64,000 nt of DNA from Desulfobulbaceae bacterium (GTDB taxonomy: Bacteria > Bacteroidota > Ignavibacteria > Kapaibacteriales > UBA2268), in NCBI GenBank assembly GCA_018335795.1, contig JAGXRP010000060.1, forward strand, positions 62,001 to 126,000. The letters run 5' to 3'. Every line of letters begins with the position of its first letter. Position 1 is the stretch's first letter. Below the pieces are notes generated by a model. That model was not told the DNA's origin and searched no databases. It worked only from the letters and a program-made list of their open reading frames with translations. Of this stretch, positions 1 to 42,384 are shown piece by piece. A program made the translations under genes and the position numbers.

Positions 1-3000
1 ATATTATTTGTCCCTGTAGCTCTGTTGGGGCAAAATTGGACAAATACTCTCAAGCCGGAAATACTTAAAAACGGTACCGGTTATTCGGCTCATGACCAAG
101 CAACAGCATCAGTAATTGATTTTCAGGGAAATGTAGTCATTACCGGTTATTTTGAGGGAGAAATTGTTTTCGGTACAGACACTTTGCGAACAGCCGGAAA
201 TAGAGATATTTTCGTCGCAAAACTGAATAAAAACGGATATTGGGAATGGGCGCGTTCTGCCGGAGGCTCAAATGCCGATTATGGCAGAGGAATAGCAGCA
301 GATGTGAATGGTAATGTCTTTATCACAGGATATTTCTATACATCAGCAACATTTGGAACGCATACGATTACAGGTTCTACAAATACAGATATTTTCGTCG
401 CAAAAATAAATTCCTCCGGAGTTTGGCAATGGGCTAAATCAGCTCCCGGATTCGGTTTTAATCGCGGGAACGCAATAGACGTTGACCCCGATGGGAATTG
501 TTTCGTTACAGGCGGATTTGATGGCAATATAACTATTGGCAATATCATACTGACAAGCGGCGGCTCAAGAGATTTATTCATCGCAAAATATAGTGCAAAC
601 GGTGACGTAATTTGGGCAACGAAAGCCGGTGGCAGCTCTGCCGACGAAGCTCTTGCAATCAAATATTACGGCTCGGATAAAATGTTGTATCTGACAGGCG
701 GATTTGCCGGAAACGCAACATTCGGCTCGCAGAACATCATTGCTGTGGGCGGTAAAGATGTTTTTGTTACAAAAGTGGATACTTCAGGAATTTTCCAATG
801 GGCAGTTGGTGCAGGCAGCACTTCTTCGGAAGATAGCCGTTCTATTGCTTTAGATGGTGGTGGAAATGCCGTCATCACAGGCTATTATGTCAAAAATTTT
901 AATTTCGGAGCATTTCCACTATCGACACCCGGGAATGAAGATGTTTTTGTTGCAAAAATAGACAAAAACGGCTCTTGGTTATGGGCTACTTCTGCAGGCA
1001 GTAATGGTTATGAACAAGGCTATTCCGTTACTTTGGATAATTCGGGCAACTCTTATGTTAGTGGTTACTTTACCGGAACTGCCAATTTTGGTGGTACTAA
1101 TTTGGTGAGCTCCGGCGATAGAAATGCTTTTCTCATGAAATTAAACTCATCTGGTGTTATTCAATTTGCGAAAGCTATCACAGGAAAGACTACAATTGAT
1201 TGTTTCACTATAGCAACCGCAACAAATGGCATATCTTATCCGATTGGTGCCTTTTATCATAATGCAGTTTTCGGGACTGACACCTTATATACACGTGGGA
1301 ATTCGGATATCTTCGCAGCGAGAATTTCAAGTTCGGGCAATTGGTCTTGGGCTTTGGGTACTGGTGGAGTTATTGGTTATGTCAACGTCAATTCAGTTGC
1401 AGCACTTGTAAATGGTGATTTCTATTCGTGCGGCTCGTTTTACGGTACTGTCGTGTTCGGGAGTGATACTATCAAATCATCAGGCGATGCCGATATTTTT
1501 GTGGCAAAATCTGACAGAAACGGCAATTGGCTTTGGGGACGGAAAGCAGGCGGGACGGAGCCTGACGTAGCTCACGGAGTAGCCGTGGACCACCTCGGTA
1601 ATGCTATATTGACAGGATACTTTTCCGTTACTGCAAAATTTGGAAATATTACTCGGGTTTCTTCGGGGCAAGGGGACATTTTTATTGCAAAGGCAGATAC
1701 AAACGGCAACTGGATATGGGTTACTATCGCAGGTGAAGACGAATTTGACGAAGGAAAAGCTGTAGTAACTGATGCCGCCGGAAATATTTATATCACCGGA
1801 TTCTTTTCTGACAAACCGTTTTTTGGCGCTACTCGATTAATCTCTACCGGCAGAGACGACGTTTTTGTTGCCAAATTGAACAATAGCGGTGCTTGGCAAT
1901 GGGCTGTGCGTGGTGGTAGTAGCCAATTTGACGTTGGAAATGCAATTGATATTGACAAAAGTGGCAATTTATATATTACCGGAGGATTCGAGAATATTGC
2001 GACTTTCGGCACCCATTCTGTCACTTCAAGTGGTGGAGATGATATTTTTATAGCAAAATTAAATAATTCGGGTACTTGGTTATGGGCAGTTTCAGCAGGA
2101 ACAAACTCGTTCCAAGAATATGGCTCGGATATCAGGTTTTCTAATTCCGGATTTGTATATGCTACGGGAACTTTCAAAGGTTTGTGTCTTTTTGGTCCGG
2201 AATATTTAATAGGTGCCGGAAATTCAGACGGGTTCATTACAAAATTAGATACAGCAGGTAATTGGATTTGGAGCCGTTCCATCGGTGGTCCGGGATTCGA
2301 TGTTGGTAAAGCCATCTCAGTTGATGCAACAGGAGGAGTAATGGCAGTAGGCTATTATTCATCATCAGCGACGATAAACGGTTCTACAATCCAATCTGCT
2401 GCTTCGAGAGCATCCTATATTGTCCGATTAGCTTCTGATGGTTCTGTGTTATACGCCAAAAGCGACTCTAATTCAACATTCTCGGAAGCTCGGGCTATTG
2501 CCGATATTGGTGGAGGAGCTCATGTTATAGCCGGAATCTATTTCGGAAAGGTCAGTTTTGGGAGTTTGGAAATTAGCGAAGTAATTTCACTTGATATGAA
2601 TTCTTACTTTGCTTTCGATGGAGTTGCATCGCCAAGTTCAGTTTGGACTTTCAAAGACAATACCGGAAAAAGTTCGACTATTTCTATCGCGGCATCCGTC
2701 AATCCCATAATTGGCAATCGTTACATGGCTGTCGGTGATGCCATTGGAGTTTTTTATATCCGAAACAGTAATCTTTACTGTGCAGGATTTTCAATCTGGA
2801 ATGGAAATGATATGGAAATAACTGTTTGGGGCGATAATGTTGAAACAGCTGTCAAAGATGGAATGGCAGACAACGAAGCATATGTAATTAAACAATTTGA
2901 TGCAGTCACAGGCGACCAATACGTTGTGATTCCGCGTTATGAATCGGGTCCCGACCACTTTGTTGATGGTACTACAACTGTGATTTCACGTATGCCCGAT

Positions 3001-4158
3001 TACCCCGATACTCTTTTTATACCTCTTGTTACAGGTTGGAATATGGTATCCTCCATCTTTTTAGCTACAAATCCAAATATGGAAAGTATTTTCAATTCCA
3101 TAAAAAATCATATTGCAATTGTAAAGAACAACGCCGGAGATGTTTATATCCCTGAATTTGAAGTCAATACAATCGGCGATTGGGATTTAACTCAAGGATA
3201 CCAAGTATATTCGCAAAAGGCTCAAACAATTAAAGTAGTAGGTACATCAATCGAACCCGAGGATTACACGATTTATTGTAAAGCAGGTTGGAACATAATT
3301 TCGTACTTGAGAGATAGTCCCTATGACGCTGAGCTTTGTTTTGCGCCGCTTACCGAGCATGATAATTTGATTATTGCGAAAGATAATGCCGGCAACGTAT
3401 TCATTCCGGAGTATGATATAAATATGATAGGGAATTTAATCCCAATGCAAGGCTATCAGGTATATCTTAAGAATAAGGACACTTTGCTATATCCGCCAAA
3501 TTCGTTGGAAAAAGTATCTGTTGATTACGACCGCTTCAGCTTTGTACCAACTTACTTTCTACCCCATGAATCAAATACAGGAAATAATGCGGTTGCTCTT
3601 ATCGAATTGCCTGAAGTTCCTGACGGTTCAGAAATTGCAGTTTTGACTCCGTCCGGAATCATTGCAGGGGCTGCTAAGTTTAAAGATGGCATCGCACCTG
3701 TTACAGTTTGGGGAGAAGATGCTTTAGACGAAAATCCAATTTTGTTCAGCAATGGTGACAAAATGAACTTTGTTCTTTTTAATTCTACCGACAATAAAGA
3801 ATTGATTTTAAATGATTTAGTCGCTGAAGGCAATAATAGGGCAGATTTGACATATCAGCAAAACGGATTCTTCAAACTTAAAAGGAATAATGCTCTAAAA
3901 CAAAACATGAACGTTTCGGCTTATCCAAATCCTGCGATTGATTATTTCTGGTTGAATCTCGAAGGGCAATTTACGGGTTCAATTAAAGTTGAATTAGCCG
4001 ATTTATCCGGCAAATCTTTATTGAGCTATTTTATAAAGAAGACTACAAGCTCACATTCCGAATTAATCAATTTCAGCAATTTATCGAGTGGATACTATAT
4101 TTTGAAAATTGAATTTGATGATAGCGCAATCACCGAAGGGATAATTATCAATAAATAA
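1..4158 (+). CDS. SBBP-repeat T9SS-secreted protein, 5' end cut by window edge
   Basis: The frame is open to base 1. The first visible residues (ILFVPVALLGQ) look like the end of a signal peptide, so the true start lies upstream; a TTG at 25 is not credible because it falls inside that segment. Thirteen ~60-residue SBBP-type repeats follow up to about residue 840. Each pairs a D(I/V)F(V/I)AK-x-N-x-G-x-W-x-WA strand with a later D-x-x-GN-x-x-x-TG(Y/G)F strand, a pattern that builds a beta-propeller. Residues about 850-1270 hold non-repeated beta-rich segments, two of them alike (each with GWN followed by IPE(F/Y)). The last ~80 residues (AYPNPAIDYFWLNL, SGYYILKIEF) form a type A T9SS sorting domain. 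Inferred to be exported through the Sec and T9SS systems to the cell surface or medium; ligand unknown. It converges on the next gene with one base between the stop codons. Confidence 0.88.
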   Translation: MLFVPVALLGQNWTNTLKPEILKNGTGYSAHDQATASVIDFQGNVVITGYFEGEIVFGTDTLRTAGNRDIFVAKLNKNGYWEWARSAGGSNADYGRGIAADVNGNVFITGYFYTSATFGTHTITGSTNTDIFVAKINSSGVWQWAKSAPGFGFNRGNAIDVDPDGNCFVTGGFDGNITIGNIILTSGGSRDLFIAKYSANGDVIWATKAGGSSADEALAIKYYGSDKMLYLTGGFAGNATFGSQNIIAVGGKDVFVTKVDTSGIFQWAVGAGSTSSEDSRSIALDGGGNAVITGYYVKNFNFGAFPLSTPGNEDVFVAKIDKNGSWLWATSAGSNGYEQGYSVTLDNSGNSYVSGYFTGTANFGGTNLVSSGDRNAFLMKLNSSGVIQFAKAITGKTTIDCFTIATATNGISYPIGAFYHNAVFGTDTLYTRGNSDIFAARISSSGNWSWALGTGGVIGYVNVNSVAALVNGDFYSCGSFYGTVVFGSDTIKSSGDADIFVAKSDRNGNWLWGRKAGGTEPDVAHGVAVDHLGNAILTGYFSVTAKFGNITRVSSGQGDIFIAKADTNGNWIWVTIAGEDEFDEGKAVVTDAAGNIYITGFFSDKPFFGATRLISTGRDDVFVAKLNNSGAWQWAVRGGSSQFDVGNAIDIDKSGNLYITGGFENIATFGTHSVTSSGGDDIFIAKLNNSGTWLWAVSAGTNSFQEYGSDIRFSNSGFVYATGTFKGLCLFGPEYLIGAGNSDGFITKLDTAGNWIWSRSIGGPGFDVGKAISVDATGGVMAVGYYSSSATINGSTIQSAASRASYIVRLASDGSVLYAKSDSNSTFSEARAIADIGGGAHVIAGIYFGKVSFGSLEISEVISLDMNSYFAFDGVASPSSVWTFKDNTGKSSTISIAASVNPIIGNRYMAVGDAIGVFYIRNSNLYCAGFSIWNGNDMEITVWGDNVETAVKDGMADNEAYVIKQFDAVTGDQYVVIPRYESGPDHFVDGTTTVISRMPDYPDTLFIPLVTGWNMVSSIFLATNPNMESIFNSIKNHIAIVKNNAGDVYIPEFEVNTIGDWDLTQGYQVYSQKAQTIKVVGTSIEPEDYTIYCKAGWNIISYLRDSPYDAELCFAPLTEHDNLIIAKDNAGNVFIPEYDINMIGNLIPMQGYQVYLKNKDTLLYPPNSLEKVSVDYDRFSFVPTYFLPHESNTGNNAVALIELPEVPDGSEIAVLTPSGIIAGAAKFKDGIAPVTVWGEDALDENPILFSNGDKMNFVLFNSTDNKELILNDLVAEGNNRADLTYQQNGFFKLKRNNALKQNMNVSAYPNPAIDYFWLNLEGQFTGSIKVELADLSGKSLLSYFIKKTTSSHSELINFSNLSSGYYILKIEFDDSAITEGIIINK

Positions 4159-4159
4159 T

Positions 4160-6766
4160 TTATTTAATGATAATAAATTTTTCTGATTTGAAATTCCAAG
4201 GTGATTTCAAAGTAGCGAAATAAATTCCTGTGGGCAGACTTGATGTATTTAATTCAAATTCATGTAGAAAGATTCCTTTTTTCAAATTTTGATATTTGTA
4301 ATTCTCAATTTCAATACCTGATGCATTGAATATTGTTAATTCATAATCACCTTCAGACATCCCTTCGAGCAAGAATTTCAATTGTCGCTCGCCAAAAAGC
4401 GACTTGACAGTCAAATTTGCAGGTTTGAAATAATTAATTGGTCTGATTTCTAAAGCACAAGCACTGATTTTCAAGTTTCCATAGACAAAAGAACTGCTAA
4501 TTAAATCGCTGTGCCACACAGCTTTATCTATCATAAGTGGTTCGTTAACATCCGTACCGACTAAGACTTTGCCACAAATTTGAGTTAGCACATTTCCGGT
4601 TCCGCTGAGAGTAAAATTTTCTACTTTTACACACAAAAACCTTTTTCCGCCAACAACTTCATTCAACAAGATTTCGCCGTTGCTGATACTTTCGGGGTAA
4701 AAATAGTCTGAATTGAATGATACTTGGAATTCTACATCAGATTCAAAATCTTTGGCATCATTACAATCCAATTTTGCATAAACAGGAATGCAAATCTCAT
4801 CGCCCGGTGCAGACTCGACTTCAGGAATCATTAATGTATTTGGGGCAATGATTTTACCGGAAATTGGCAAATATTCTTCAATTTTGCAGAAATCAGAGAT
4901 GATAAACGTCAGAGAATCATCTACTATTCCTATTAAATCAGATTTTACTGTAGCGATTATATCGAATATTTCGTCCTTTTTGACTAAAACATTCTTGAAT
5001 TTATTCAAAAAAATTTCTTCGGAAGAGCGAATAAGCTTCACATCTTTAATTAAAACATCTATTCCGGTTACATTTTTAACTTTCAATCTTACATCAAATC
5101 TTTCACCAAGGCAAATCTCACCAAAATTTGCCACTTCGGGATTAAGATATTCAAATTTTGCAATTTCAGCTCTGACTGTCAATGTATCCGAATCTGAGCA
5201 ATGACCGTTATTTAACAGTGTTAAAACGTAAATTCCAGGCTTACTGACTTCAATTGATTGAGTCGAATCACCCGTTGACCAAAAGTATTCGTGGGCTTCG
5301 AATTGGGATGAAAGTATAATTGGAGCATCTGAACAAATGACGCTGTCGCCAATGATTTTAGCAATCGGAATTTGGCTGTAACTTATTGAAATGCTATCTG
5401 AAATTATATATTCGCGGAAAAATGCTTGAAAATAATATTTCCCGACATCAGTTTCGGAAAAGTTGTTTATCTTGAGGAAATATTCATTGGAACTGTACCC
5501 ATTGGGACCTTTCCAGATAAATGTCATTTCACTAAATAGGACATTAGTCACAGGGTCAATAATTAAATAGTCTCCTGCGCAAACAACTGTGTCGCGTAGA
5601 TTACTAGTCATGAAAAAATACCCTTGCGACATATTCGGCAAACCGTAAAGCGATTTAGCGGATGATTTTTCTGATGCCAATCTTACGGCATCCGTTCGAT
5701 AATTGCATTCATCGCCAGTCAGATTCGGATTTTCGATAACGTCAAGATAAATTGAGTTCAGCATAGCAACATAAATTTTGCCGTTGGGACCTATCTGCAA
5801 TGCACCCGGAACTCCTCTATTCTTATCACCATAAATTCTATGACCGCTTAAATTAATTTTATCGGCAATTAATTCCGATACATCATATTGATAAATCGAA
5901 CGTTTGGTAAAATCTGACACATATAGTTTGTTGCCATTAGGTGAAAATTCGACTCCATAATTACTATACCTGCCGAAAGTAAGAATAGAAATAGGATTGA
6001 AAATTTTGCCGGTAGAATTATCGAATGAAAATAATTCAATATTATCATACTCGTTTATGGCAGCTGCTAATTTCGTTCCGCATGGTGAAAATTTCAGCTG
6101 TCCGATTGAACGAATTGGAGGTCCGTCATAATTCAAACCGACGGAAGAAGTAATCACATCCTCAATCCCTTGGTCAGTAAGTAATACTGAGATGAATTTG
6201 TTGCTATTCCATTCATGGCTTACTATCCATAGGTCTTGATTGTTAAAGTGAACTGTTGCAGTAAGTTTTTCAACTGCCGGTTTTTTGATTAGCTTATTGA
6301 TTTCGACGATTTCACCATAGCCATTGTTAAGCTCTGCATCAATGACTGTATAGCAAAGCCCTTTGCTGTCAGGTTGATTTGGGTCAATTATATCAAAATA
6401 TTGTCCTGCATCCACAGTAAAAATATAATATATACTATTTACGCCGGGTTTTTTTACTATTAATGCACTTTGAGTAGAACTGAAATGACCGTGCATGGCT
6501 GTGTCGGGGTTCATAACTATGTGAAGTGAGTTCCAAACTCTAACTCCATCTGTATAAAACATCAACTTGCCGGTCGAATCGGAAATAGATGATACGCCCT
6601 CTAAAGTGTTGATTTGGGAGTTTTCTAAAGCAACCGGTTCACCATCAGGTGTATCGAAAGTTAAGCCTGCGTTGGAACCAAAGTACCAGCTATAGCTCTC
6701 TTTTTGAGAGTAAATACCTGTTGTGAACAGCAATAAATTAAGAATCAAAATTAAAGTTAAACGCAT
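4160..6766 (-). CDS. T9SS-secreted propeller protein, one Ig-like module (operon member 3)
   Basis: Signal peptide, then a WD40-like propeller of about 350 residues opening with SYSWYFGSNAGLTF and containing EGVSSISDSTGKLMFYTDG and FSSTQSALIVKKPG. One Ig-like segment (FIWKGPNGYSS) and a single short module follow (WSTGDSTQSIEVSKPGIYVL). Next come a cohesin-like region (IPEVESAPGDEICIPVYAKL) and a type A T9SS sorting domain (LPTGIYFATLKSPW). The same architecture occurs in the two genes upstream, so this is the shortest of three paralogs. I start it at the ATG at 6766, which shares one base with the upstream stop (TGATG); a TTG directly before it would add one residue. The coupling indicates co-translation in one operon. 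Surface location is inferred from the sorting domain; function unknown. Confidence 0.85.
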   Translation of the reverse strand: MRLTLILILNLLLFTTGIYSQKESYSWYFGSNAGLTFDTPDGEPVALENSQINTLEGVSSISDSTGKLMFYTDGVRVWNSLHIVMNPDTAMHGHFSSTQSALIVKKPGVNSIYYIFTVDAGQYFDIIDPNQPDSKGLCYTVIDAELNNGYGEIVEINKLIKKPAVEKLTATVHFNNQDLWIVSHEWNSNKFISVLLTDQGIEDVITSSVGLNYDGPPIRSIGQLKFSPCGTKLAAAINEYDNIELFSFDNSTGKIFNPISILTFGRYSNYGVEFSPNGNKLYVSDFTKRSIYQYDVSELIADKINLSGHRIYGDKNRGVPGALQIGPNGKIYVAMLNSIYLDVIENPNLTGDECNYRTDAVRLASEKSSAKSLYGLPNMSQGYFFMTSNLRDTVVCAGDYLIIDPVTNVLFSEMTFIWKGPNGYSSNEYFLKINNFSETDVGKYYFQAFFREYIISDSISISYSQIPIAKIIGDSVICSDAPIILSSQFEAHEYFWSTGDSTQSIEVSKPGIYVLTLLNNGHCSDSDTLTVRAEIAKFEYLNPEVANFGEICLGERFDVRLKVKNVTGIDVLIKDVKLIRSSEEIFLNKFKNVLVKKDEIFDIIATVKSDLIGIVDDSLTFIISDFCKIEEYLPISGKIIAPNTLMIPEVESAPGDEICIPVYAKLDCNDAKDFESDVEFQVSFNSDYFYPESISNGEILLNEVVGGKRFLCVKVENFTLSGTGNVLTQICGKVLVGTDVNEPLMIDKAVWHSDLISSSFVYGNLKISACALEIRPINYFKPANLTVKSLFGERQLKFLLEGMSEGDYELTIFNASGIEIENYKYQNLKKGIFLHEFELNTSSLPTGIYFATLKSPWNFKSEKFIIIK

Positions 6767-9700
6767 CAATTTTCAATTATCAATTTGTCAAAAATTACAG
6801 TATCCGGTGATTTTACGCGAATAATATAAAATCCATTTTTAAATTCTCTCGAATATAAGGAAAATATATTAACTTGCTGTGAATTTTCCGAAATAACAAA
6901 CTCAAACGAAGCAATTTCCATGCCGTTAAGGTCGAATATGTCAACTTTGTGCAGTCCCATTTGTTCGGTTGTAATAGTCAATTCAACTGTTTCAGATGCA
7001 GGATTTGGGGCAATTTGCAGTGCTGCAGGTTTTATAAAATTTATTGGACGCAAATCTATGACACATGCTTCGATTTTCAAACTGCCGTTTATTTTTTCGG
7101 TAGAAATTAAATCATCATGCCAATCAGCTGCGCCATAAGCCAATTCTGTTGGGATATCTCTGCCAACAAGTGCTACTCCGCAAAGCTCGTCAATCATTGT
7201 TTCAGTTTCAGTAAGATTCAATGATGTGTAATCAATCGTCACAGTACAGATGCCATTTTCGATGACTTTCGTAAAATTCGTTCCCGATTTGAGATTTATC
7301 GGATTGAAATAATCCGCATCGAAACTAATTTGAATTGTAGCCGATGATACAAAAGGCGAGGCGCCACAATTGATTTTACCGTAAATTGGGATGCAAAGTT
7401 GCTCTCCTGCAATTGCTTCAATTTCAGGCAATCTTATTTGATTTGTTAGACTGAACTTTTGTGATGCGGACGACATCGTTTCGTGATAGCAGGGTTGATT
7501 TGAAATGGCGAGAATTGATGTTTCGAAAAATCCTGTTTCGTCGGAAATTGCTTCGAGGATAATTTCTTTTGATTCGAATGCACCAATTGTAAATGGCAAT
7601 CCCGGTGAAATCAGTTTAAAATTCTGAACGTTGTTAAGAATAATTTCATCTATGGTTGATTCGGCTTCTGTATGATTTACCAAAACTGCTTTAATCAACG
7701 ATTTTGTTCCTGTGCAAACAGTTTTTTCACTGTATGAAGATTGGTCGAACCTAATATCAACAATCAAATCAGAAATTGTGACTTCGGCGGAATCAATGCA
7801 ACCAATCTCGTTCGTTACAATTACTTTATAAGTGCCTGAGTTGCTGACTACTGCACTTGAGCTTGTTGAGCCGTCAGACCATAAATATGATGCATAATCG
7901 CCGTTTGCTGTGAGAGTTAATGTATCATTATCGCAAATGAAATAATTGCTCGCCGTAATTTCCGGTTTTTCGATTGGCATTATGAAAATCTCAATTTCAG
8001 CAGAGTCTTCGCAACCTATTTCATTTCTAACTATTAACTTATAAATTCCTGCTTTATCAATAATTATACTTTGAGAAATAGCGCCATTCGACCACAAATA
8101 TTCGTGATATTCTTGATTCGCGGATAAAGTAACGGGTGTACCGGCTTCGCAAACATAGATTTTGTCGGCTATGATTTCGGGTTTTTCAATATCGAAGACT
8201 TTGATTTCAAATTCAGTTGTATCGCTACATCCATTTTCATCATAAACGACGCATTTATACTTTCCGCTTTCATAGAATTTGCGAAACACGTCAGTACTGC
8301 CATCTTCCCAAATAATATCATTATTTTGGTAATCAAAATTGACCGTGGCTGTTACAGAATCACCTTTGCAAAAAATCAAATCATTGCTGAATTCTACTTC
8401 TACATCCGGTTTTTCGCCTATTTGAACTAGGACTTCGACAGAATCAATGCATTTATATTGATTCATTGAATATATTTTATAGACTCCGGGTTCTGAAACT
8501 ATTCGAGAAGTCCCGATAATTCCATCGTCCCAAGTGTATATGTTTTCCAAAGATGGATTAGTAACGGAAATTTTCACACTTTGCCCATTGCAAATAGTTA
8601 CAATTCCTGAATGAGATAGTTGCACGTCAGGGTGAGGGTAACCCATTACTTGAATGGTATCATAGCCTAAGCATCCGCCAAATCGTTTTATTATTAATGA
8701 GTATTCACCGGGTTCGGTAACAATTATACTCCTTGTTGTGTCGCCTGTTGACCATAAGTAATAATAATCAATTAAATCAAGTTCTTTGAATTTATTTGCG
8801 GTCAAAGTGATTGTATCTCCTTGGCAGAATCCGGTTGGACCAACGATTTTCGCATCTAAATTATTACTTAGTTCAATATTAAAATAAGCTGTATCAATGC
8901 AACCATGTATTGACTTTGCAATAACGTAATAATTACCGGGCTCGTAAACTTCAATCTGGTGATTAGTAATGCCATTAGACCATAAATAACTTGTTCCGTC
9001 TTCAATAAATTCAACTCTCAATTTAGCGATATCCGGTGGGCAGATTGATTTAGGACCAATAATTTTAACAATGGGATTTGGATGAACAGAGATATAAATT
9101 GATTCTGTCATAATCAACTCGCCTAATTCATATGCCTTGACTATGTAATTGCCTTCATGAACCGATTGGGCATTTTTGATTATTATTTTTGATGAATTTG
9201 CAGAAAATCCATTTGGTCCTGTCCATTCGTATGTATAAAAGGAACCGCCGGGAATCACTTCGGCTATTAATTCAATATCTTGCCCCTCGCAAACATCTCC
9301 ACCTTTGACCACCAATTTTTTAAATTGTTCAGTTACACAATAATTTGGGAGCCCAAATTCGCTAAACCCTAAAACCAATCCTGTTGCATTAAATTGCAAA
9401 TCACAAGCAACACCTGCCGAATCCGGCTGGTTGATAGCGGAAAGATTTCTTGCACCATAAATTGCAATATATATTTTTCCATTCGGAGCTAATTGCAATG
9501 AACCAAATGATTGGAAAGATGCATAATTACTATAAATTGTCTGTCGTGATTGTTCGATTGAGTTTTTATTATAGTTACTAATGTCAAATTGAAGTATTCT
9601 ACGATGCACATTCGATGTATAAACAAATCTTCCTGATGGTGAAAATTCTACGCCATAAGTCCCTTGTATATTATCAATCTCAATTGGCAAATGGTCTGAA

Positions 9701-10461
9701 ATTATGCCTAATTCTCTATTGAAATGATACAAATCCATATCAAACAGTGAAAAGCAAACTGCAGCTAATCTATCACCACGTATATTAGACTTCAAATGAC
9801 CTAATGTTACTGCTGCTTTATCCTCGGTATTTAAATCGTAAATAGGACCAATGTTTTGAGTTGTTACATTCTCTATTCCATTTTCTGTTAATAATGCAAC
9901 AACAAAGTTAGCACTGTTAATTTCGTGAGCAATTATCCAATAATCTTTATCATTAGCGTGCATTACTGCTGTTAGTTTTTCGACAACGTCAACATTGTGA
10001 ATTTTGATGTTTTTAATAATAACATCACCGTTGCCATTGTCTTGGTTCAAATCAACAATAGAATAACAGAAATCTTGTGGTGTAACGGGTGTATAAGGTC
10101 CCTTCCCAACTGTAAAAATGTAATAAAGGTTATCACTTCCGGGCTTTTTGATTATTATAGCGGACTGTGTTGAAGACTCATGCCCCTTTAAATTTGTGCC
10201 ATTGGGCATAAGGTTGTTTTGACGATTCCAAACATATTCACCATTAGTATAAAACAATAAATTTGCATCTTTATCCGAAATACTTGCACTACCTTCCAAA
10301 GTTGACATACTACTCACATAACTGACAGGCTCCAAATTAGGATTGTTAAATGATACTGCTCCAAAGTTTCCAAAATGCCAATTGTAGTACTCTTTCCCAA
10401 TTTGTTGGGCTTGAGTGTTTGCTGCAAGGAGCAGGAATAATGCGAAAATGATTTGTTTCAT
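6766..10461 (-). CDS. T9SS-secreted propeller protein, six Ig-like modules (operon member 2)
   Basis: Start chosen at the ATG at 10461, which gives a signal peptide (MKQIIFALFLLLAANTQAQ) and a four-base ATGA overlap with the upstream stop; an upstream in-frame start would add 12 charged residues. Order: signal, WD40-like propeller to about residue 380, an Ig-like domain (YEWTGPNGFSAN), six ~80-residue modules with a W(S/D/E)(N/T/D)G core and a closing GC-x-D-(S/T) strand, a spacer domain, a cohesin-like segment (LPEIEAIAGEQLCIPIYGKI), and a type A sorting domain. Six modules against nine and one in its paralogs point to expansion or contraction by recombination. Probably an adhesin or surface-exposed binding protein; ligand unknown. 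Confidence 0.86.
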   Translation of the reverse strand: MKQIIFALFLLLAANTQAQQIGKEYYNWHFGNFGAVSFNNPNLEPVSYVSSMSTLEGSASISDKDANLLFYTNGEYVWNRQNNLMPNGTNLKGHESSTQSAIIIKKPGSDNLYYIFTVGKGPYTPVTPQDFCYSIVDLNQDNGNGDVIIKNIKIHNVDVVEKLTAVMHANDKDYWIIAHEINSANFVVALLTENGIENVTTQNIGPIYDLNTEDKAAVTLGHLKSNIRGDRLAAVCFSLFDMDLYHFNRELGIISDHLPIEIDNIQGTYGVEFSPSGRFVYTSNVHRRILQFDISNYNKNSIEQSRQTIYSNYASFQSFGSLQLAPNGKIYIAIYGARNLSAINQPDSAGVACDLQFNATGLVLGFSEFGLPNYCVTEQFKKLVVKGGDVCEGQDIELIAEVIPGGSFYTYEWTGPNGFSANSSKIIIKNAQSVHEGNYIVKAYELGELIMTESIYISVHPNPIVKIIGPKSICPPDIAKLRVEFIEDGTSYLWSNGITNHQIEVYEPGNYYVIAKSIHGCIDTAYFNIELSNNLDAKIVGPTGFCQGDTITLTANKFKELDLIDYYYLWSTGDTTRSIIVTEPGEYSLIIKRFGGCLGYDTIQVMGYPHPDVQLSHSGIVTICNGQSVKISVTNPSLENIYTWDDGIIGTSRIVSEPGVYKIYSMNQYKCIDSVEVLVQIGEKPDVEVEFSNDLIFCKGDSVTATVNFDYQNNDIIWEDGSTDVFRKFYESGKYKCVVYDENGCSDTTEFEIKVFDIEKPEIIADKIYVCEAGTPVTLSANQEYHEYLWSNGAISQSIIIDKAGIYKLIVRNEIGCEDSAEIEIFIMPIEKPEITASNYFICDNDTLTLTANGDYASYLWSDGSTSSSAVVSNSGTYKVIVTNEIGCIDSAEVTISDLIVDIRFDQSSYSEKTVCTGTKSLIKAVLVNHTEAESTIDEIILNNVQNFKLISPGLPFTIGAFESKEIILEAISDETGFFETSILAISNQPCYHETMSSASQKFSLTNQIRLPEIEAIAGEQLCIPIYGKINCGASPFVSSATIQISFDADYFNPINLKSGTNFTKVIENGICTVTIDYTSLNLTETETMIDELCGVALVGRDIPTELAYGAADWHDDLISTEKINGSLKIEACVIDLRPINFIKPAALQIAPNPASETVELTITTEQMGLHKVDIFDLNGMEIASFEFVISENSQQVNIFSLYSREFKNGFYIIRVKSPDTVIFDKLIIEN

Positions 10462-13400
10462 CGGACGACCATGATTTTTTCGTAATGAAGGCTCCAAGGT
10501 GCTTTTAGCAAAATACTGTAAACACCTTGTGATTTTGTGCTTATATCAAATTCAAATTCAAGCATGCTTGTTTGTGTGTTTTCCCATTTTTTGAGTATTT
10601 CTTGAGTGCCATCGTATGATACCAAGACTAATTCAAATTCGCCTATCGAACCGGAATTAACTAAAACACGAAGATTGTCGCTTGCAGGCATTGGGTTGAC
10701 CTTGAGCGTTGTTGGCGTGTAATATCTGATTCCGCGAATTTCTTGAACGCAAGAAATATTGACAAGAGTACCGTTATTTGATTCATTGGCAATTCTTACA
10801 TTATCCCATTCAAAGTCTTCGATAATTATACTTGATTTTAAATCTGCACCGAGCAAAATTGTTCCGCAAATAGTAACCAAATTTTGCTTGTTTTGTTTAA
10901 TTGTATAAATGTCAGTATATATTTTGATGAATCGTCTGCCGTCTTTGATATAATTTCCCAAAATCGTACCCAAATTGACAGTTTTGGGCAAGAAATACTG
11001 AGCATCAAAAGATATTGTGATTTCAAATCCGGAATTCAAGTCTTCACTAATATCGCATTTCGGTTCAATTACAAAATCAATACATGCTTCTTCGCCACCT
11101 GTAAATACTAATTCGGGTGATGTTAGCTCAGTTTTCATAAATGAAGCAACATTGAATTCGAATGAGGAGAAAAATTCGCAAGGTCCAAGGCAATTAATTT
11201 GAATCAGCCCAACTAATTCATCAGTTGTCGTCGGCAAATATCTAATCTTGATTTTCCTCTCACTATTTGCATCCATTCCTGCCATTATATTTCCACTGTC
11301 AACCAATTCCATATCCATAGTATTGCCGAAAGTGAAATCTTTTGTTACTATAAATCGCGGATTAGGGTTTGTAACTTCAATTTCGATAATAGCTTCTTCG
11401 CCAATACATGGTTCAGGGAATGTTAACTGCCTAAAAGTTAAAGGCATGGATTCATCAGCATTAAAGATTTCAATACTGTTTGTCGCTCTACAATCGTTTT
11501 CATCATAAACAGTGACTGTGTAGTTGCCTGCTTTTGAAACCAAAATTGTTCTGGTAGTCTCGCCGGTTGACCATTCGTATCGAGAATATTCCTCTGTAGT
11601 TGAAATTGAGACTGTTTCCCCGATACAAAGTTCAGGTTTATCTGTAGTCAATTCAACGTCTAATTCGGGCAATTCTTCAATTTCAACAAATGCTGTATCG
11701 CTACATCCCCACTGATTCCATACAGCAAGCCAATATTTGCCTGATTGAGCGACGGTGATTGAAGGGGATTTCTCTCCGGTTGACCAGATGTAATCTGTTT
11801 CGGGAGCAATAGTTGACTCAAGTAAAACCGAACCGCCAACACAGAAAAAAGTCTCTCCAATAACGTTAATTTCAGAAATTGGCGAATCATGTACTAAAAC
11901 CTCAATTTCGGCTGAATCAATGCAAATATTACCATTCGCCACATAGACTTTGTAAACGCCACTTACCTTTACTATTAAAGTTGTACCGAGGGTCCCGTCA
12001 TTCCAAGTGTAAACAAATTCAGGATTAGGATTTAAAACATTCAATTCCACGCTTCCACCAATGCAAAAAGCTATAGGTGAAGGGTTTAGAATCTTAACTG
12101 TGGGGATTTCAAAAAACAGTGCACTTATAGTGTCGGTGCCTTCGCAACCCTCCGAATGACTAATACTTACCCACACTTCTCCTGTTTCAGTCACTTTTAT
12201 AGATTTACTTGTTTCACCGGTTGACCATAAATAAGTGAAATTTGATTCGCTATCCGGGAAATTTGCATTTGCAACAAGAGTGATAGTATCGCCTTGGCAT
12301 GCCATTTTCGGACCTCCAATTCTTACGGGCAATTTGTCGGAGACTATTACTGACACTGCTTTGAAATCTGAACACCCAAATTCTGTAGTAACAGTTACGT
12401 AATATAAGCCCGTTTTGTTTACTATGATACTATCAGTTGTTTCACCGGTTGACCATAAATATTCAAAATCCGGATTTTTGGGGAATGCGTGAATAATGAG
12501 AGTTTGACTATCACAAATGGATATTTCATCTTCAAAATTAAGTTGTACAAAAGGCTTATTATGTATAATAATATTTACCCATGCTGAATCAGAGCATCCT
12601 TCGGGAGTAATTGCGTAAAGTGTAAATTTGCCCTCTTCATTATAAAATTTGCGTTCAAATCCTACTACTCCATCGCTCCAACGATATGTGTAAGTATCAT
12701 TCGGGTTGATTACAAAAACTGTAACTGTGTCGCCACGACAAATATGTATGTCGTCTTCATGGCTCATCTCAAGGAATGCAGCTTGATTTCTTTCTAAAGT
12801 TCGACTCGCATAAGCGAAGCAAGTTCCGGCGACTACAAGTTTGACTTCATAAGTGCCTGCTTTTGTAGCAATAATTGTATTTGAAGTATCGCCTGTAGAC
12901 CATACAAAATAGTGAATATATTCAGACAAGTCTGTTAATGAACGTGCAGTTAATGTTGCTATGCCCGGCACACATATCACTGAATCACCTTCGATAACTA
13001 CTTGCAAATCATCAATGCTGTGAACAGTGTATGTCGTTGTATCGGAGCATCCGTGAATATTTGTAACTCTTAGTCCGTATTTGCCGGGTAGTTTGACCTT
13101 AATCGTTTGAGTTGTTTCACCGGTTGACCACAGATACGAATAATTGGCTTTATTATGAACTGATTCGAGCAGCACTTCGGAGTTATCATCGCAAATAAGT
13201 CCTGTACCTTTAATTTCAGCCTTCGGGGTTTCAAGTACTGTTATATGTATAAAAGCAGTATCATAACAACCCCTTGAATTTCTAATCGAAAGGAAATAGG
13301 TACCTGAATCTTTAACTGTTATCTGTGAAGCATTTGAACCTGTTGACCACCTATAAGAGAAAAATGGGTGTATTGTATCTGCCGATAAAGAGGTAGCTTC

Positions 13401-14816
13401 GCCTTTACAAAATTCCGTCAAACCTAAAATTTTAAACTGAGTCCGTGCATTAACCCGAACATGATTTTGGACTGAAACGACAAACTCTTCACCGTTGACA
13501 ATGTATTTAACAGTCAAAACATAGAGCCCACTATCAGCAAGAGTAGCATCAGTAAAGTAAGGATTCGTTTCTTTCGACGTAAAACCATTTGGTCCCGTCC
13601 ATCCGAATTCAAATACGTATTTTGATGTGTCTTGCAAAATGTCCAAAGGGTCTAAAGAAAAATCATTATTCACACATACATCTATCAGCAAAGAATAATT
13701 CGAACCTAATGGTATTGCGTTTGGGAGTCCTAATTGTGATTTTGAAGAGTCCAAAGCGACACCCATAACCCTAAATCCACATGCCGCACCTTTACTGTCT
13801 GGATTTCTGATAGCAGACAAGTAGTATTCTCCGGCTTTAGCAATATAAATATTGCCGTTTGGTGCCATTTGCAGAGAACCAATATGACCGCCTTTGCTAA
13901 CTATATATTCTGATTTTCGGATTGAAGTCGTATCGTGAATACTAATATCATATTGAAATAGAGTACCAGTATTAAAACCATTACGACTATTGCTAATATA
14001 AAGCAACTTTCCGGAAGAAGAAAATTCGACGCCGTATAAATTATATACTTCGGCAATATTAATTTTTAGTGGTTCAGAAGGGACACCTGTCTTGTTATCA
14101 AATTTGTAAATTTCAAAGAATGTGACATCCTGGTATGCAATGGCAATTTTGGTGCCTTGAGGAGAAATTTTTAGTTGTCCGACAGAATTATAATCATTTG
14201 TTGGATTGAATCCAATTGAAGTGATTACAGTATCTTCAATTCCATTTTCAGTCAGAAGAAAAGAGTAAATATTATTATTTTTCCAACCCTTGGTGACAAC
14301 CCAAATGTCTTTTTTATTAGCATGTAATGTAGCGTTAAGCTTTTCACTGGCTTTAGGCAAAAGCGGTACATTTGTCATAATCATAGCTCCATTGCCGCCG
14401 TTAGCCGCCATGTCAACGATTGAATAATGAATTCCTGCGTTTGGCGGGTCGACATATTCACTCGCGTCAGAAGTGAATACATAATAAATACTACTACTTC
14501 CGGGCTTTTTGGCAATTAGAGCAGATTGAGTTGAAGATTGATGACCCATGAGCTTTTCAGCATTGAGTTTGGAGCCCTTATAATTGTAAATTTGTTCACC
14601 GTTTGTACTAAATAGGAGATTTCCCATTGCATCTGAAATCGTCGCCGAACCTTCATACTGAAAAATTGGATTGCCTCGCAGGAACACAGGATTACGATTA
14701 GGAGTATTGAATGTAATACCTGACATTTCACCGAAATACCAATTGTTAAACTCTCCTTGGCTGTAAAGAGAATTCGATGAAAAGCATATTATTAAAACGA
14801 GTATAATTTTCCTCAT
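10458..14816 (-). CDS. T9SS-secreted propeller protein, nine Ig-like modules (operon leader)
   Basis: First gene of the three-paralog operon. ATG at 14816 is preceded by GGGAG seven bases upstream; a TTG two codons earlier is less likely. Signal peptide (RKIILVLIICFSSNSLYSQ), WD40-like propeller to about residue 375 (NNWYFGEMSGITF, YEGSATISDAMGNLLF), Ig-like domain (FGWTGPNGFTSKE), then nine modules with WSTGETT or related cores and a GCSD-type closing strand to about residue 1130. A spacer, a cohesin-like region (GEEACIDFVIEP) and a C-terminal sorting-type domain (QGVYSILLKAPW) follow. At over 1,450 residues it is the longest of the set. It could be an adhesin with a stalk whose length depends on module number. 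No recognisable promoter was found in 14817-14950 on this strand. Confidence 0.86.
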   Translation of the reverse strand: MRKIILVLIICFSSNSLYSQGEFNNWYFGEMSGITFNTPNRNPVFLRGNPIFQYEGSATISDAMGNLLFSTNGEQIYNYKGSKLNAEKLMGHQSSTQSALIAKKPGSSSIYYVFTSDASEYVDPPNAGIHYSIVDMAANGGNGAMIMTNVPLLPKASEKLNATLHANKKDIWVVTKGWKNNNIYSFLLTENGIEDTVITSIGFNPTNDYNSVGQLKISPQGTKIAIAYQDVTFFEIYKFDNKTGVPSEPLKINIAEVYNLYGVEFSSSGKLLYISNSRNGFNTGTLFQYDISIHDTTSIRKSEYIVSKGGHIGSLQMAPNGNIYIAKAGEYYLSAIRNPDSKGAACGFRVMGVALDSSKSQLGLPNAIPLGSNYSLLIDVCVNNDFSLDPLDILQDTSKYVFEFGWTGPNGFTSKETNPYFTDATLADSGLYVLTVKYIVNGEEFVVSVQNHVRVNARTQFKILGLTEFCKGEATSLSADTIHPFFSYRWSTGSNASQITVKDSGTYFLSIRNSRGCYDTAFIHITVLETPKAEIKGTGLICDDNSEVLLESVHNKANYSYLWSTGETTQTIKVKLPGKYGLRVTNIHGCSDTTTYTVHSIDDLQVVIEGDSVICVPGIATLTARSLTDLSEYIHYFVWSTGDTSNTIIATKAGTYEVKLVVAGTCFAYASRTLERNQAAFLEMSHEDDIHICRGDTVTVFVINPNDTYTYRWSDGVVGFERKFYNEEGKFTLYAITPEGCSDSAWVNIIIHNKPFVQLNFEDEISICDSQTLIIHAFPKNPDFEYLWSTGETTDSIIVNKTGLYYVTVTTEFGCSDFKAVSVIVSDKLPVRIGGPKMACQGDTITLVANANFPDSESNFTYLWSTGETSKSIKVTETGEVWVSISHSEGCEGTDTISALFFEIPTVKILNPSPIAFCIGGSVELNVLNPNPEFVYTWNDGTLGTTLIVKVSGVYKVYVANGNICIDSAEIEVLVHDSPISEINVIGETFFCVGGSVLLESTIAPETDYIWSTGEKSPSITVAQSGKYWLAVWNQWGCSDTAFVEIEELPELDVELTTDKPELCIGETVSISTTEEYSRYEWSTGETTRTILVSKAGNYTVTVYDENDCRATNSIEIFNADESMPLTFRQLTFPEPCIGEEAIIEIEVTNPNPRFIVTKDFTFGNTMDMELVDSGNIMAGMDANSERKIKIRYLPTTTDELVGLIQINCLGPCEFFSSFEFNVASFMKTELTSPELVFTGGEEACIDFVIEPKCDISEDLNSGFEITISFDAQYFLPKTVNLGTILGNYIKDGRRFIKIYTDIYTIKQNKQNLVTICGTILLGADLKSSIIIEDFEWDNVRIANESNNGTLVNISCVQEIRGIRYYTPTTLKVNPMPASDNLRVLVNSGSIGEFELVLVSYDGTQEILKKWENTQTSMLEFEFDISTKSQGVYSILLKAPWSLHYEKIMVVR

Positions 14817-14991
14817 GAGCAATCTCCCAAAAAAATTGCAAATTTCTTACCATATAAACAATATAAATTAACTTTCGTTACAAAATATTTTTTATTTTAT
14901 CAAAATAGTGAAAAAAACCCACTAATTGCAATAAAATCAGCATTTTTTAGTCAAAGATAAAATTTCGGTAACAAACAATCGCTTTTTGTGA

Positions 14992-15022
14992 TTTGTAATG
15001 ACATAAAAAATAGTTATTTTTG
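14992..15022 (+). promoter_or_regulatory. Bacteroidota-type promoter for atpDC
   Basis: TTTG at 14992-14995, a 19-base spacer, then TATTTTTG at 15015-15022, an exact fit to the Bacteroidota -33/-7 pattern TTTG-N19-TAnnTTTG. Transcription would start near 15029, giving a leader of about 64 bases before atpD. Confidence 0.6.
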
Positions 15023-15089
15023 CAACTTATGCTACAAACATATTAGAAATGAAAATTACACTTATAAAAATTTAATAAAGGTTTTATAA

Positions 15090-16502
<1,413 letters not shown>

Positions 16503-23920: not shown

Positions 23921-24937
23921 TCAGTTCAGTTCATTCATTAATTCTTTTACTTTCTGTTCAAGTACATTTCTATCAGGTAAATACAATTGGTATTTTGATA
24001 CAAAAATATTATTTGAAATCCCTCCAATTGCATATTCGACTAATATATCATTTTTATCAGCTCCAAGGACAATCCCAATTGGTGGATTATCTCCTTCAAT
24101 ATTTTCTTCAACTTTGAAATAATTCAAATACATATTCATTTGTCCAATATCTTGATGCTTGACATGTTTTGTCTTCAAGTCTATTAATACAAAACACTTT
24201 AAAATTCTATGATAAAAAACTAAATCCACATAGAAATGTTCATTATCCAATGTAACCCGATATTGTCTTCCAATAAACGAAAATCCTTTACCTAATTCAA
24301 GTAAAAATGTTTGAAGATTATCAATGATTTTCTGTTCTAATTTACTTTCGGTCATTCGATACACTTCAGGAATCTGAAGAAATTCCAATACATAAGGGTC
24401 TTTTACAATATCACTTGGTTTAATAATGATTTGTCCTTTTTCTGCTAATTTAAGAACTCCGTTTTTATCTTTGCTTAATGCCAATCGTTCAAATAAAGAA
24501 GAATTGATTTGCCTTTTTAATTCTCGTACACTCCAATTTTCATTTATTGCTTGTTTCTCGTAAAATTTTCTTGCTATATCTTCTGAAACACTTAATAATT
24601 CTGCATAATGAGTCCATGTCAATTTTCCAGTCACTGACTGGAAAATTTGATATTTCAAGTAAAATTGTCTCATCAAATAAATATTGCTTTTGCTGAAACC
24701 TTTACCAAATCTTGTTTTTAAGTCTTTTGAAAGATTTGTCAATAAGGCGCTTCCATAATCTGCTTTCTCATTTCCTTGCTGTTCAAATTCAACAATATAT
24801 TTTCCAATCTCCCAATTGGCTTGTAGCAACTCATTATTTACAACTTGAAATGCCCTTTGTCGGGCATTCTCTATTGTAATTCCGATACTATCAACTAGTT
24901 CTTGATATATTTGTGTATTTTGAAACTTTTTAGTCAT
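23921..24937 (-). CDS. YhcG-type PDDEXK nuclease domain protein (DUF1016)
   Basis: 338 residues, typical for the YhcG family. The N-terminal half (about 1-170) is the helical DUF1016 N domain (QANWEIGKYIVEFEQQG, SKSNIYLMRQFYLKY, LTWTHYAELLSV). The C-terminal half carries the nuclease core: FYVDLVFYHR supplies the Asp and CFVLIDLKTK the D-x-K, with a downstream QMNMYLNYF helix. These proteins are found in accessory regions, often near restriction or mobile genes; the cellular role is unsettled, so DNA cleavage is inference. A candidate -7 (TATATTTG on the minus strand, 25040-25047) lies upstream with a poor -33. Confidence 0.88.
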   Translation of the reverse strand: MTKKFQNTQIYQELVDSIGITIENARQRAFQVVNNELLQANWEIGKYIVEFEQQGNEKADYGSALLTNLSKDLKTRFGKGFSKSNIYLMRQFYLKYQIFQSVTGKLTWTHYAELLSVSEDIARKFYEKQAINENWSVRELKRQINSSLFERLALSKDKNGVLKLAEKGQIIIKPSDIVKDPYVLEFLQIPEVYRMTESKLEQKIIDNLQTFLLELGKGFSFIGRQYRVTLDNEHFYVDLVFYHRILKCFVLIDLKTKHVKHQDIGQMNMYLNYFKVEENIEGDNPPIGIVLGADKNDILVEYAIGGISNNIFVSKYQLYLPDRNVLEQKVKELMNELN

Positions 24938-38765: not shown

Positions 38766-39902
38766 TTATAATTTCAAATCTTCATTCTTCAATCCGTAAG
38801 TTCGTGTCCAATAGGCCATATTAAAGGGTACGCCTGCATTGAGTAATCGAATATCTCTTTCCAATTTCTGATTATTGTCGGAATCGTTTAATGTTAGTCG
38901 GATTTGTGGTGACTTGACTTCTCCGAAATTAATTTCAGCAATAAGCTTGATAATGTGGTTGATGAAACTTTCTGCGATTTTAGCATCAGCGGTGATGATT
39001 TCGCGTCTGATTTTGTAATGTGTTTGAGCCGCTGCTAGCGAACCATTTTTCAATTCGGTAGTCAAAGTTTGGGAGAGTAATGCTTTAGAAATCTCCGTGT
39101 TGCAAAAATTTATCATTTCTAAATACAAATCGGTTGACGATGTTCGGGTGGCTTCTGCCAAAGTGATTTCAATATCCGAGGGCGATACAATTACAGCGTC
39201 TTCGTGCATATCCGACAGAACTTGGGCTAAGTCTTCGGCTTCGTCTTTGGTGGCGCCACGGTTGTATTTGCCTATCAAAATCGGCATTCCGTATTTTTCC
39301 ATGAAATTCACCCAAAATCGAAGTCCCCCGTTTTTGAATGTTACAGCCCAATAGCATCTCGCCAACAAGGCTTCGCCGTATGGATTGGCATAGCTTGCTT
39401 CATGGCTTGCAGTTGAAAACTTGAATCTCGAAACCGGTATTGGCTCGGTATGTTTTCCTTTTAAACACAATCTGCCTCTTGTGTCATAACAAAACCATTC
39501 CTGTGGCTTAGCTTGGATTTTCGTCGGTAATAAATATCTGGTGCCGGAATTAGTTTCATTCCAAATAAACTCGAATGGTTGCCAACCGTAAAGGACTGAT
39601 TCTGCAATATCGCTAATTAGTGATGCAATGTTTATTTCGGAAATAAATTGCTCTATTAATTTGCTTAAAGCGGGCTCAACGTTGTCTATCAAAAGAGAAT
39701 ATTCAAGATTTTGCAGTCCACTTTTGCGCGATTGGATGCAACTCCAAACATGTGGGTCGTATTTTAATTTGCGATAATTTTCGATGGAATTGCCTGTCTT
39801 GCTCAATATTTCATCAGGATTGGGCAAAATTCCGATATAATTAAAGAAGGACAACCTGTTTTCGCGCCTAACAAGTTCGGATGTAAGATATTTTTTTTGC
39901 AT
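38766..39902 (-). CDS. Mu gp29-like portal protein (DUF935)
   Basis: 378 residues. The N-terminal RKLKYDPHVWSCIQSRKSGL and the central YGWQPFEFIW, SRFKFSTASHEASYANPYGEALL and MEKYGMPILIGKYNRGA are characteristic of Mu-like portal proteins, which form the ring through which DNA enters the head. Mu gp29 is longer (over 500 residues), so this is a compact version lacking the tail end. In Mu, portal follows terminase and precedes capsid genes; here it is the last gene of the block and no terminase is present. Intact reading frame. The start has only a weak Shine-Dalgarno. Confidence 0.88.
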   Translation of the reverse strand: MQKKYLTSELVRRENRLSFFNYIGILPNPDEILSKTGNSIENYRKLKYDPHVWSCIQSRKSGLQNLEYSLLIDNVEPALSKLIEQFISEINIASLISDIAESVLYGWQPFEFIWNETNSGTRYLLPTKIQAKPQEWFCYDTRGRLCLKGKHTEPIPVSRFKFSTASHEASYANPYGEALLARCYWAVTFKNGGLRFWVNFMEKYGMPILIGKYNRGATKDEAEDLAQVLSDMHEDAVIVSPSDIEITLAEATRTSSTDLYLEMINFCNTEISKALLSQTLTTELKNGSLAAAQTHYKIRREIITADAKIAESFINHIIKLIAEINFGEVKSPQIRLTLNDSDNNQKLERDIRLLNAGVPFNMAYWTRTYGLKNEDLKL

Positions 39903-39914
39903 AATTATTTTCTT

Positions 39915-40355
39915 TTAATTTGATGAATTGCCCAACAAGAAACCAATCACAACTGAAGCAATAGCAATTAGCACCGTTTCCCAGTCACTTTCCGATTCTT
40001 CGGCTTTATTTTCGACAATTATTTCTGCGACTGCATTTGTATCAGCTTTGTGTCTAACAGATAAATTAATTAAATGCTCCGGAAAATCGTATCGCACAAA
40101 AACAGTATCGTATTTGACTACTGTATCCAAAATTGCCGTAAATGATTGGGATATATATACTGTATCACTTCGGTAAATAATTTCCGGTTTGGCATTTTCG
40201 ATTGTTATCGGCTCTCGATATTCGATTTGGAATACAGTATCGCGAACGATATTTTTTACTAACCGCACATTTTCCGGTCGCTCGGGCAATAAAATATGAT
40301 AAATTAAAGCTCCTGTCAGTAAGGACAGGAGCAATATAAATAGAATTTGTTTCAT
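39915..40355 (-). CDS. Two-membrane-segment protein in the phage-like block (spanin-like?)
   Basis: 146 residues: N-terminal hydrophobic segment (ILFILLLSLLTGALIYHILL), a ~95-residue extracytoplasmic stretch with repeated DTV elements (RDTVFQ, SDTVYI, LDTVVKYDTVFV), and a C-terminal hydrophobic segment (VLIAIASVVIGFLLG). The size and position beside the lysin suggest a spanin (outer-membrane disruption protein), but I have no motif to prove it. Ten-base gap to its neighbour upstream. Confidence 0.55.
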   Translation of the reverse strand: MKQILFILLLSLLTGALIYHILLPERPENVRLVKNIVRDTVFQIEYREPITIENAKPEIIYRSDTVYISQSFTAILDTVVKYDTVFVRYDFPEHLINLSVRHKADTNAVAEIIVENKAEESESDWETVLIAIASVVIGFLLGNSSN

Positions 40356-40365
40356 TTTATTTAAG

Positions 40366-40719
40366 TTAATTATATGAAAGAACTAAATTCAGATTGCCTG
40401 AAATTGCATCTCGTGATTCAAATATTATTTTTATAAAAACATAATCAGCATTTAAAGATAAAAATATTGAATCGGTAATATTATTTCCAACGTCAGGCTC
40501 CACTGTTTCGATTATTTTATATGCAATTCTATCATTCGATACAGCAAATTTAATTAACGGATAATCACCCGTAACTGCTAAATTATTCCAATATACCTGC
40601 AATGAGGCTGCTCTGCGAATAATTCTGTTTTGGTTTTTATCTAACACAAATAATGGAAACCAAGCCGTCTCGAAATCAATTGTCATTGATTGATTCTTGA
40701 GTAAATTAGTGTTGAACAT
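40366..40719 (-). CDS. Hypothetical protein of the phage-like block
   Basis: 117 residues, no signal or membrane segment, beta-rich by eye (FETAWFPLFVLDKNQNRIIR, ASLQVYWNNLAVTGDYPLIK, closing GNLNLVLSYN). This pattern recalls small beta-sandwich proteins of phage heads or fibres, but I cannot name it. Start supported by AGGAT upstream; it overlaps the lysin gene end by 14 bases. Confidence 0.55.
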   Translation of the reverse strand: MFNTNLLKNQSMTIDFETAWFPLFVLDKNQNRIIRRAASLQVYWNNLAVTGDYPLIKFAVSNDRIAYKIIETVEPDVGNNITDSIFLSLNADYVFIKIIFESRDAISGNLNLVLSYN

Positions 40720-41281: not shown

Positions 41282-41285
41282 TTTA

Positions 41286-41579: not shown

Positions 41580-41598
41580 TTTGCACCTCTCAATATTT

Positions 41599-42027: not shown

Positions 42028-42036
42028 ATCGGACTC

Positions 42037-42381: not shown

Positions 42382-42384
42382 AGT

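Follow-up and report, generated by a model that had tools for sequence, protein, structure and literature searches.

Three coupled genes for propeller-headed proteins with stalks of nine, six and one Ig-like modules: conserved module numbers in the long and short proteins and a fused middle gene

Three adjoining genes, A, B and C, found in a window of 64,000 nucleotides (the whole stretch of DNA that was analysed), encode putative surface proteins that share one layout and carry nine, six and one stalk modules, respectively. The numbers of modules in A and C are the same in all six genomes where the trio was found, which belong to two genera, and the middle gene B varies in copy number and is, in the window, a fusion of two genes that are separate in a sister species. 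We consider it probable, though well short of assured, that these proteins would be outer-membrane rods that hold propeller heads at set heights and that the stalk length of A and C would be under stabilising selection. Surface rods made of repeats are generally portrayed as quick to change in length, whereas the long and short stalks are here kept through deep divergence, the middle gene having been duplicated and fused with a breakpoint outside the modules. The trio is therefore a natural test of selection on rod length itself. No paper about it was found among the open-licence PMC papers listed, as judged by title or start of the abstract.

The window is part of contig C60; the genome, of 3.5 Mb, is 99.93% complete and 3.09% contaminated. 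The three genes follow one another on the minus strand, longest first: gene A (10458–14816, ATG at 14816) encodes a protein of 1452 aa, gene B (6766–10461, ATG at 10461) a protein of 1231 aa and gene C (4160–6766, ATG at 6766) a protein of 868 aa. The starts are coupled at both junctions, with the sequence cgATGA between A and B and TGATG between B and C. The open frames, their order and these junctions bear out the preliminary description of three coupled surface-protein genes at 4160–14816; its word "giant" is too strong. All three proteins consist of a propeller head (354–365 residues), an Ig-like domain, stalk modules (67–73 residues each), and a base (334–336 residues) with a T9SS-type sorting region at its C-terminal end. 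Gene C is adjoined by a convergent gene (window 25–4158) for a T9SS-type SBBP beta-propeller protein, and a similar C-terminal end is found in the protein adjoining C in two sister genomes (G001 and G002).

The heads are located at 13707–14768 in A (head HMM and alignment), 9331–10413 in B (head HMM) and 5621–6715 in C (structure model), all on the minus strand. The structure model of C is good (pLDDT 88.1, pTM 0.55) and its head is a beta-propeller closest to those of the 6-phosphogluconolactonase type (PDB 4qrj and 3scy, Z 23.7 and 22.9; 297 aligned residues and rmsd 3.5 for the best match). The same list contains an archaeal surface-layer protein made of a YVTN propeller and PKD domain (PDB 1l0q, Z 23.3, rmsd 16.7 over 352 residues) and, close behind, by further propellers at Z 20–21, so that the fold does not single out the 6-phosphogluconolactonase-type family. 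The scores for this family are below the cut-off of the Lactonase profile PF10282 (21.7), with 13.4 bits for C and 16.4 bits for C of G020, the best E among 16 heads being 0.002. By sequence, C alone matched no solved structure at E 0.01. In an alignment of the 16 heads, those of A and B are 38% and 37% identical to that of C. The common propeller head that had been described is thus supported by this alignment and by the C model, the fold of the A and B heads following by homology to C. Across both genera, A heads group together in the head tree (100/99), as do B heads (100/97) and, with one extra protein, C heads (80/88); the three heads therefore predate the divergence of the two genera. 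In Bacteroidota this head family is widespread and often occurs in tandem. The archaeal protein 1l0q likewise carries a propeller and then an Ig-like domain on the cell surface, and we know of no graded set for it.

Stalk modules were counted with an iterated HMM that started from the modules of the window, at a threshold of 25 bits. This HMM finds nine modules in A (11463–13445, 661 residues; also placed by structure model and cross-genus comparison), six in B (7771–9078) and one in C (5171–5371), all on the minus strand, which confirms the numbers first given. It also finds, beside the head of each protein, a weaker first Ig-like domain (minus strand, 13455–13700 in A, with the alignment). 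The modules of the window are only 15–50% identical pairwise and no DNA tandem repeat was reported in the window at default score; the modules are therefore old. Whether the modules are closer to each other within one protein, a question raised by the preliminary description, is answered in the negative, as mean identity is 28.4% within one protein versus 29.2% between proteins. Across the two genera, positional counterparts in A are 35.0% identical versus 25.1% for other pairs (0 of 20000 permutations as good) and, for five-module B, the true order alone does as well (1 of 120 orders). The best cross-genus mean match is the positional counterpart at five of the nine positions of A and four of the five positions of B. 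The stalks of A and of five-module B are homologous position by position. The C module is nearer to A2 (mean identity 39%) than to its counterpart in the other genus (33%), and the two genera have their C modules separated in the module tree, which is built on few columns and leaves many forks open. An origin of A from B by a four-module block was considered and is neither backed nor contradicted by the comparison: an offset of four gives a mean of 30.0% and an offset of one gives 30.5%, and 684 of 20000 random assignments are at least as good as the offset of four.

The structure model of the A stalk, built on four sequences, is weak overall (pLDDT 79.5, pTM 0.34). Its best Foldseek matches are the neck and base of GhpA, the grappling hook protein from Aureispira sp. 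CCB-QB1 (PDB 9flp and others; E 1.3e-40 and 4.0e-34), with TM-scores of 0.26 and 0.23 over the query. Given the weak model and these low scores, the rod shape of the stalk rests on homology, A matching GhpA by phmmer at E 2.8e-58 and the Ig-like rod of GhpA being homologous to the stalk modules of the trio. GhpA is a single protein of 5898 aa, whereas the trio consists of three proteins, and we know of no graded set for GhpA. An orthology between them is not supported: by sequence comparison with a head-plus-Ig profile, all matches among the 40 stretches listed start at position 361 at least, past most of the propeller. According to passages of PMC11205867 and PMC13319060, GhpA is secreted by a T9SS and forms a heptameric filament.

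Relatives were surveyed in 123 genomes of the order, with the head and stalk of the window A, without its base, as query; a first search with A alone had given no match. The head and stalk of A are found at full length in six of the 123 genomes (E 2.3e-259 or better), three from the genus of the window and three from genus g19. The next match (E 5.1e-97) covers residues 4–522 of 1118, which correspond to the head and its neighbour only. A survey with an A-base profile gives the same six genomes, a match by construction as this profile was built from those six bases. The open frame of A is 1462–1472 aa in all six. The gene order is A-B-C in the window, G020, G034 and G043 and A-B1-B2-C in the sister G001. 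In the sister G002, A-B1a lie at the end of one contig and B1b-B2-C at the start of another, and these contig ends share exactly 77 bases, which fits an order A-B1a-B1b-B2-C, possibly with more copies.

In this comparison between species (one genome per species, six genomes, two genera), A has nine modules and C has one in all six genomes, and B has five modules in five of nine proteins and six in the other four. All six genomes have an A stalk of 661 residues, with a lowest pair identity of 33% and 24 gap runs in the alignment; short shifts thus cancel out. As the A base and the A head are conserved in length too (334 residues throughout and 354–357 residues, respectively), the stalk is not uniquely constrained. 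A single module gain is clear: in the B1 lineage, the fifth and sixth modules each cluster with the fifth module of B2 (99/89, module tree). The preliminary description had put the grading down to module recombination. As a present source of the grading this is not supported, the counts of A and C being fixed in relatives, which that description had itself named as refuting, and the modules of A keeping their positional identity. Recombination did take place, the clear case being one between whole B genes, with a breakpoint in the base, though one module was gained in B1 and a pair with two and six modules exists in G002.

Other members of the head family were compared. In the base tree, eight bases form a clade (100/99) that belongs to D, a solitary paralogue; seven of these eight proteins, with a complete stalk, have five modules. 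In the G034 member of this clade (L071 2303–5428), two modules exceed the threshold. Its head does not group with the D heads and its base closely resembles the base of the local D protein, so that the base was likely exchanged. A further D-like frame in the genome of the window was left out, as it runs off the contig. The survey with the A head and stalk strengthens the count for A, and the base tree weakens the wider claim about D. Elsewhere in the head family, module number can change: G002 carries a tandem pair of head-bearing genes (L157 1359–8944) with two and six modules that are 54–57% identical in two long matches, and three inner modules of the longer gene are 47–59% alike, which points to a later expansion. 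Three adjacent head-bearing genes of G006 (L062 2663–11003) have zero, two and six modules, the shortest first in reading direction, and a cluster of G021 has zero and four. An in-frame TGA breaks the head of a paralogue, L065 (G000 contig C63, 20557–24060), and the frames of sister genomes are uninterrupted.

The variable feature of the locus is the number of B genes, which is one in the genome of the window and two or apparently three in its sisters. The window B is a fused gene that joins the body of a sister-type B1 to the tail of a sister-type B2. Compared with G001, its head is 82% identical to B1 and 54% to B2, and its tail is 23% identical to B1 and 75% to B2. The 414 informative sites divide into 319 that resemble B1 and 23 that resemble B2 ahead of the best breakpoint, and into 6 and 66 past it; the breakpoint statistic is 254 and the highest value in 2000 permutations is 21 (0 of 2000 as good). 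The breakpoint zone (7160–7245, minus strand) is located inside the base, with the best point at 7242–7245, near 7242, and a mixed zone to about 7160. The window B base groups with B2 in the base tree (100/98). A B2 body was not found elsewhere in the genome of the window, the best match outside the trio being 31% identical. Beyond the initial 100 nt of the B2 frame, B1 and B2 of G001 share exact stretches of at most 15 nt. Collapse during assembly would require a much longer exact repeat, so this result speaks against it. In G002, B1a and B1b have an exact stretch of 79 bases in common in their tails, which may be due to recent conversion. In the B2 gene of this genome (L056 3792–7190) the start region is missing: the open frame begins just before the B1b stop, inside the head, and the gene is either truncated there or misassembled.

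The bases lie on the minus strand at 10461–11462 in A (334 residues), 6769–7770 in B (family profiles, lengths and base tree) and 4163–5170 in C (family profiles and structure model). That of A comprises a HYDIN/ASPM-type Ig domain, a cohesin-like sandwich and the sorting region, names that come from weak or orthologue matches. The base tree does not unite the two genera for the bases of A, of B or of C, and it places the C bases of the window's own genus with a further paralogue, E, on weak support (79/86). These bases therefore diverge fast or are exchanged, and it is the heads, the stalks and the gene order that identify the trio across genera; a cross-genus orthology drawn from the bases finds no backing in this tree.

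The NCBIfam profile TIGR04183 (cut-off 23) gives 34.3 for B and 26.1 for C and does not list A, and PF18962 (cut-off 27) gives 33.9 for B, 26.4 for C and 21.3 for A. Three of eight proteins tested pass PF18962, including the A orthologue of G020 (27.5), and five are below. Hydrophobic N-termini are seen in the sequences of A, B and C, and the genome encodes the T9SS translocon SprA/Sov (TIGR04189, 957.5 bits for a cut-off of 200). The sorting-type tail of the preliminary description is thus supported for B and C, which would share the C-terminal sorting region of T9SS type A substrates (TIGR04183/PF18962), and is backed by SprA and by the G020 A orthologue; the window A itself scores below both cut-offs. 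From the sorting regions and the presence of SprA, we infer that the trio would be exported by a T9SS. Cargo of this system, according to a passage of PMC10202324, is cleaved by PorU and then attached to A-LPS or released. The label of the cohesin-like region is weak, as the PF00963 scores, 14.0 bits for C and 14.5 bits in a second search, are below the cut-off of 24.1. The genome has one dockerin match over the cut-off, in one open frame of 484 aa. A cohesin–dockerin partnership was set aside on account of this cohesin score and single dockerin match.

Compared with G001, dN and dS are 0.118 and 0.99 for A (dN/dS about 0.12), 0.115 and 1.04 for C (about 0.11) and 0.011 and 0.52 for atpD; at the protein level, A and C thus evolve about ten times faster than the latter, a housekeeping protein. 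In every listed part of A and C with computable dS, dN is lower than dS, these values being rough (one part is saturated and several dS exceed 1). The heads evolve no faster than the other parts.

Taken as a whole, the trio can be viewed as follows. A, B and C would be single-chain rods, exported by the T9SS and anchored through their C-terminal end at the outer membrane. The near-constant base (about 335 residues) would sit at the membrane, the Ig-like stalk would extend outwards from it and the propeller head would be carried at the tip. The stalks (9, 5–6 and 1 modules) would set three heights for three related but distinct heads. An Ig-like module is about 4 nm long, and the stalk heights would then be roughly 36, 20–24 and 4 nm. 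The heads would most likely bind surface or matrix ligands. The B slot is the evolving one, duplicated, extended by one module in one lineage and here reduced by the B1/B2 fusion. The graded reach first suggested for these proteins may fairly be retained; the nearest solved relative of the stalk, GhpA, is a surface filament. The main argument that length matters is the contrast between the fixed A and C and the changing B, E and D-base proteins, drawn from few genomes.

A neutral history, in which the number of spacers would have been set by chance at duplication and would have stayed unchanged since, is a serious rival with an appreciable though minor chance of being right. It is favoured by the other counts found in other clusters (0, 2 and 6 in G006, 0 and 4 in G021, 2 and 6 in G002), by a head family that is widespread in Bacteroidota and often tandem, by the equally conserved lengths of head and base and by the size of the sample, six genomes in two genera. 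It accounts less well for A and C staying fixed across genera, with A stalks down to 33% identity, when module number does change in relatives (the gain in B, E6 versus E2, the D-base member of G034). Another reading takes the stalks of 9, 5 and 1 modules as length rulers with steps of four, kept by selection because the heights must fit other layers of the surface or because four modules restore the orientation of the head. Pairs with 2/6 and 0/4 modules in relatives fit such a step, but the sixth module of B and the step from 0 to 2 in G006 do not, and we hold this reading to be rather improbable. As a general rule, the step of four is rejected, adjacent genes of more distant clusters having 4, 2 and 3, 4 and 2, 0 (cut) and 1, or 1 and 1 modules, many of them barely over 25 bits.

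The trio might instead co-assemble into a joint appendage like heptameric GhpA, the number of modules fixing the end point of each protein. The coupled starts, the same trio order in two genera, the heads grouping by position and the closest solved relative of the stalk, a heptameric T9SS filament according to passages of PMC11205867 and PMC13319060, would all suit such an assembly. But the GhpA matches, among the 40 stretches listed, run from profile position 361 on and not over the propeller, and a strict stoichiometric assembly would poorly tolerate a number of B genes that goes from one to apparently three, so that we regard it as doubtful. Periscope Proteins, in which highly identical repeats vary in number at the population level according to a passage of PMC9704523, share with the trio an N-terminal head, a rod of repeated domains and a C-terminal surface attachment, their reach being set by repeat number. 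In the trio, by contrast, the grading lies between paralogues of one operon. The trio is a member of neither the GhpA nor the Periscope class; its stalk resembles GhpA, and its principle resembles that of the Periscope Proteins. That A, B and C are fast-changing adhesins of the Periscope type, tuning their reach by a repeat number that varies among close relatives, would agree with the same layout of head, stalk and anchor, the gain in the B1 lineage and the 2/6 pair of G002; it is hardly credible in view of modules that have diverged to 15–50% identity, the lack of a reported DNA tandem repeat and the A and C counts fixed between species. Very improbable too are secreted enzymes with a lactonase-type propeller, the Ig-like array being a linker or a substrate-binding region: the head fold is closest to 6-phosphogluconolactonase-type proteins (Z 21.6–23.7), but other propellers reach Z 20–21 and the lactonase scores are 13.4 and 16.4 versus 21.7. 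Rods that would hold their heads at set heights thus remain the preferred reading.

The intergenic region between A and atpD (14817–15092, 276 bases) is 96–97% identical in two sister species and is more conserved than the 5' coding DNA of A (68–84% identical compared with G001) and most of atpD (80–100%). This conservation may be read as promoter constraint. A possible RNA element upstream of A was sought in window 14000–16000; Rfam gave no match up to E 1, and the fold z is -1.47. Elsewhere in the window, a YhcG-type PDDEXK nuclease gene (23921–24937) lies in a stretch that is unaligned with two sister contigs, and the minus strand carries phage head genes at 38766–43341, among them those for a Mu-type portal (PF06074, E 1e-91), for a protein of the capsid-E type and for one that matches CHAP weakly.
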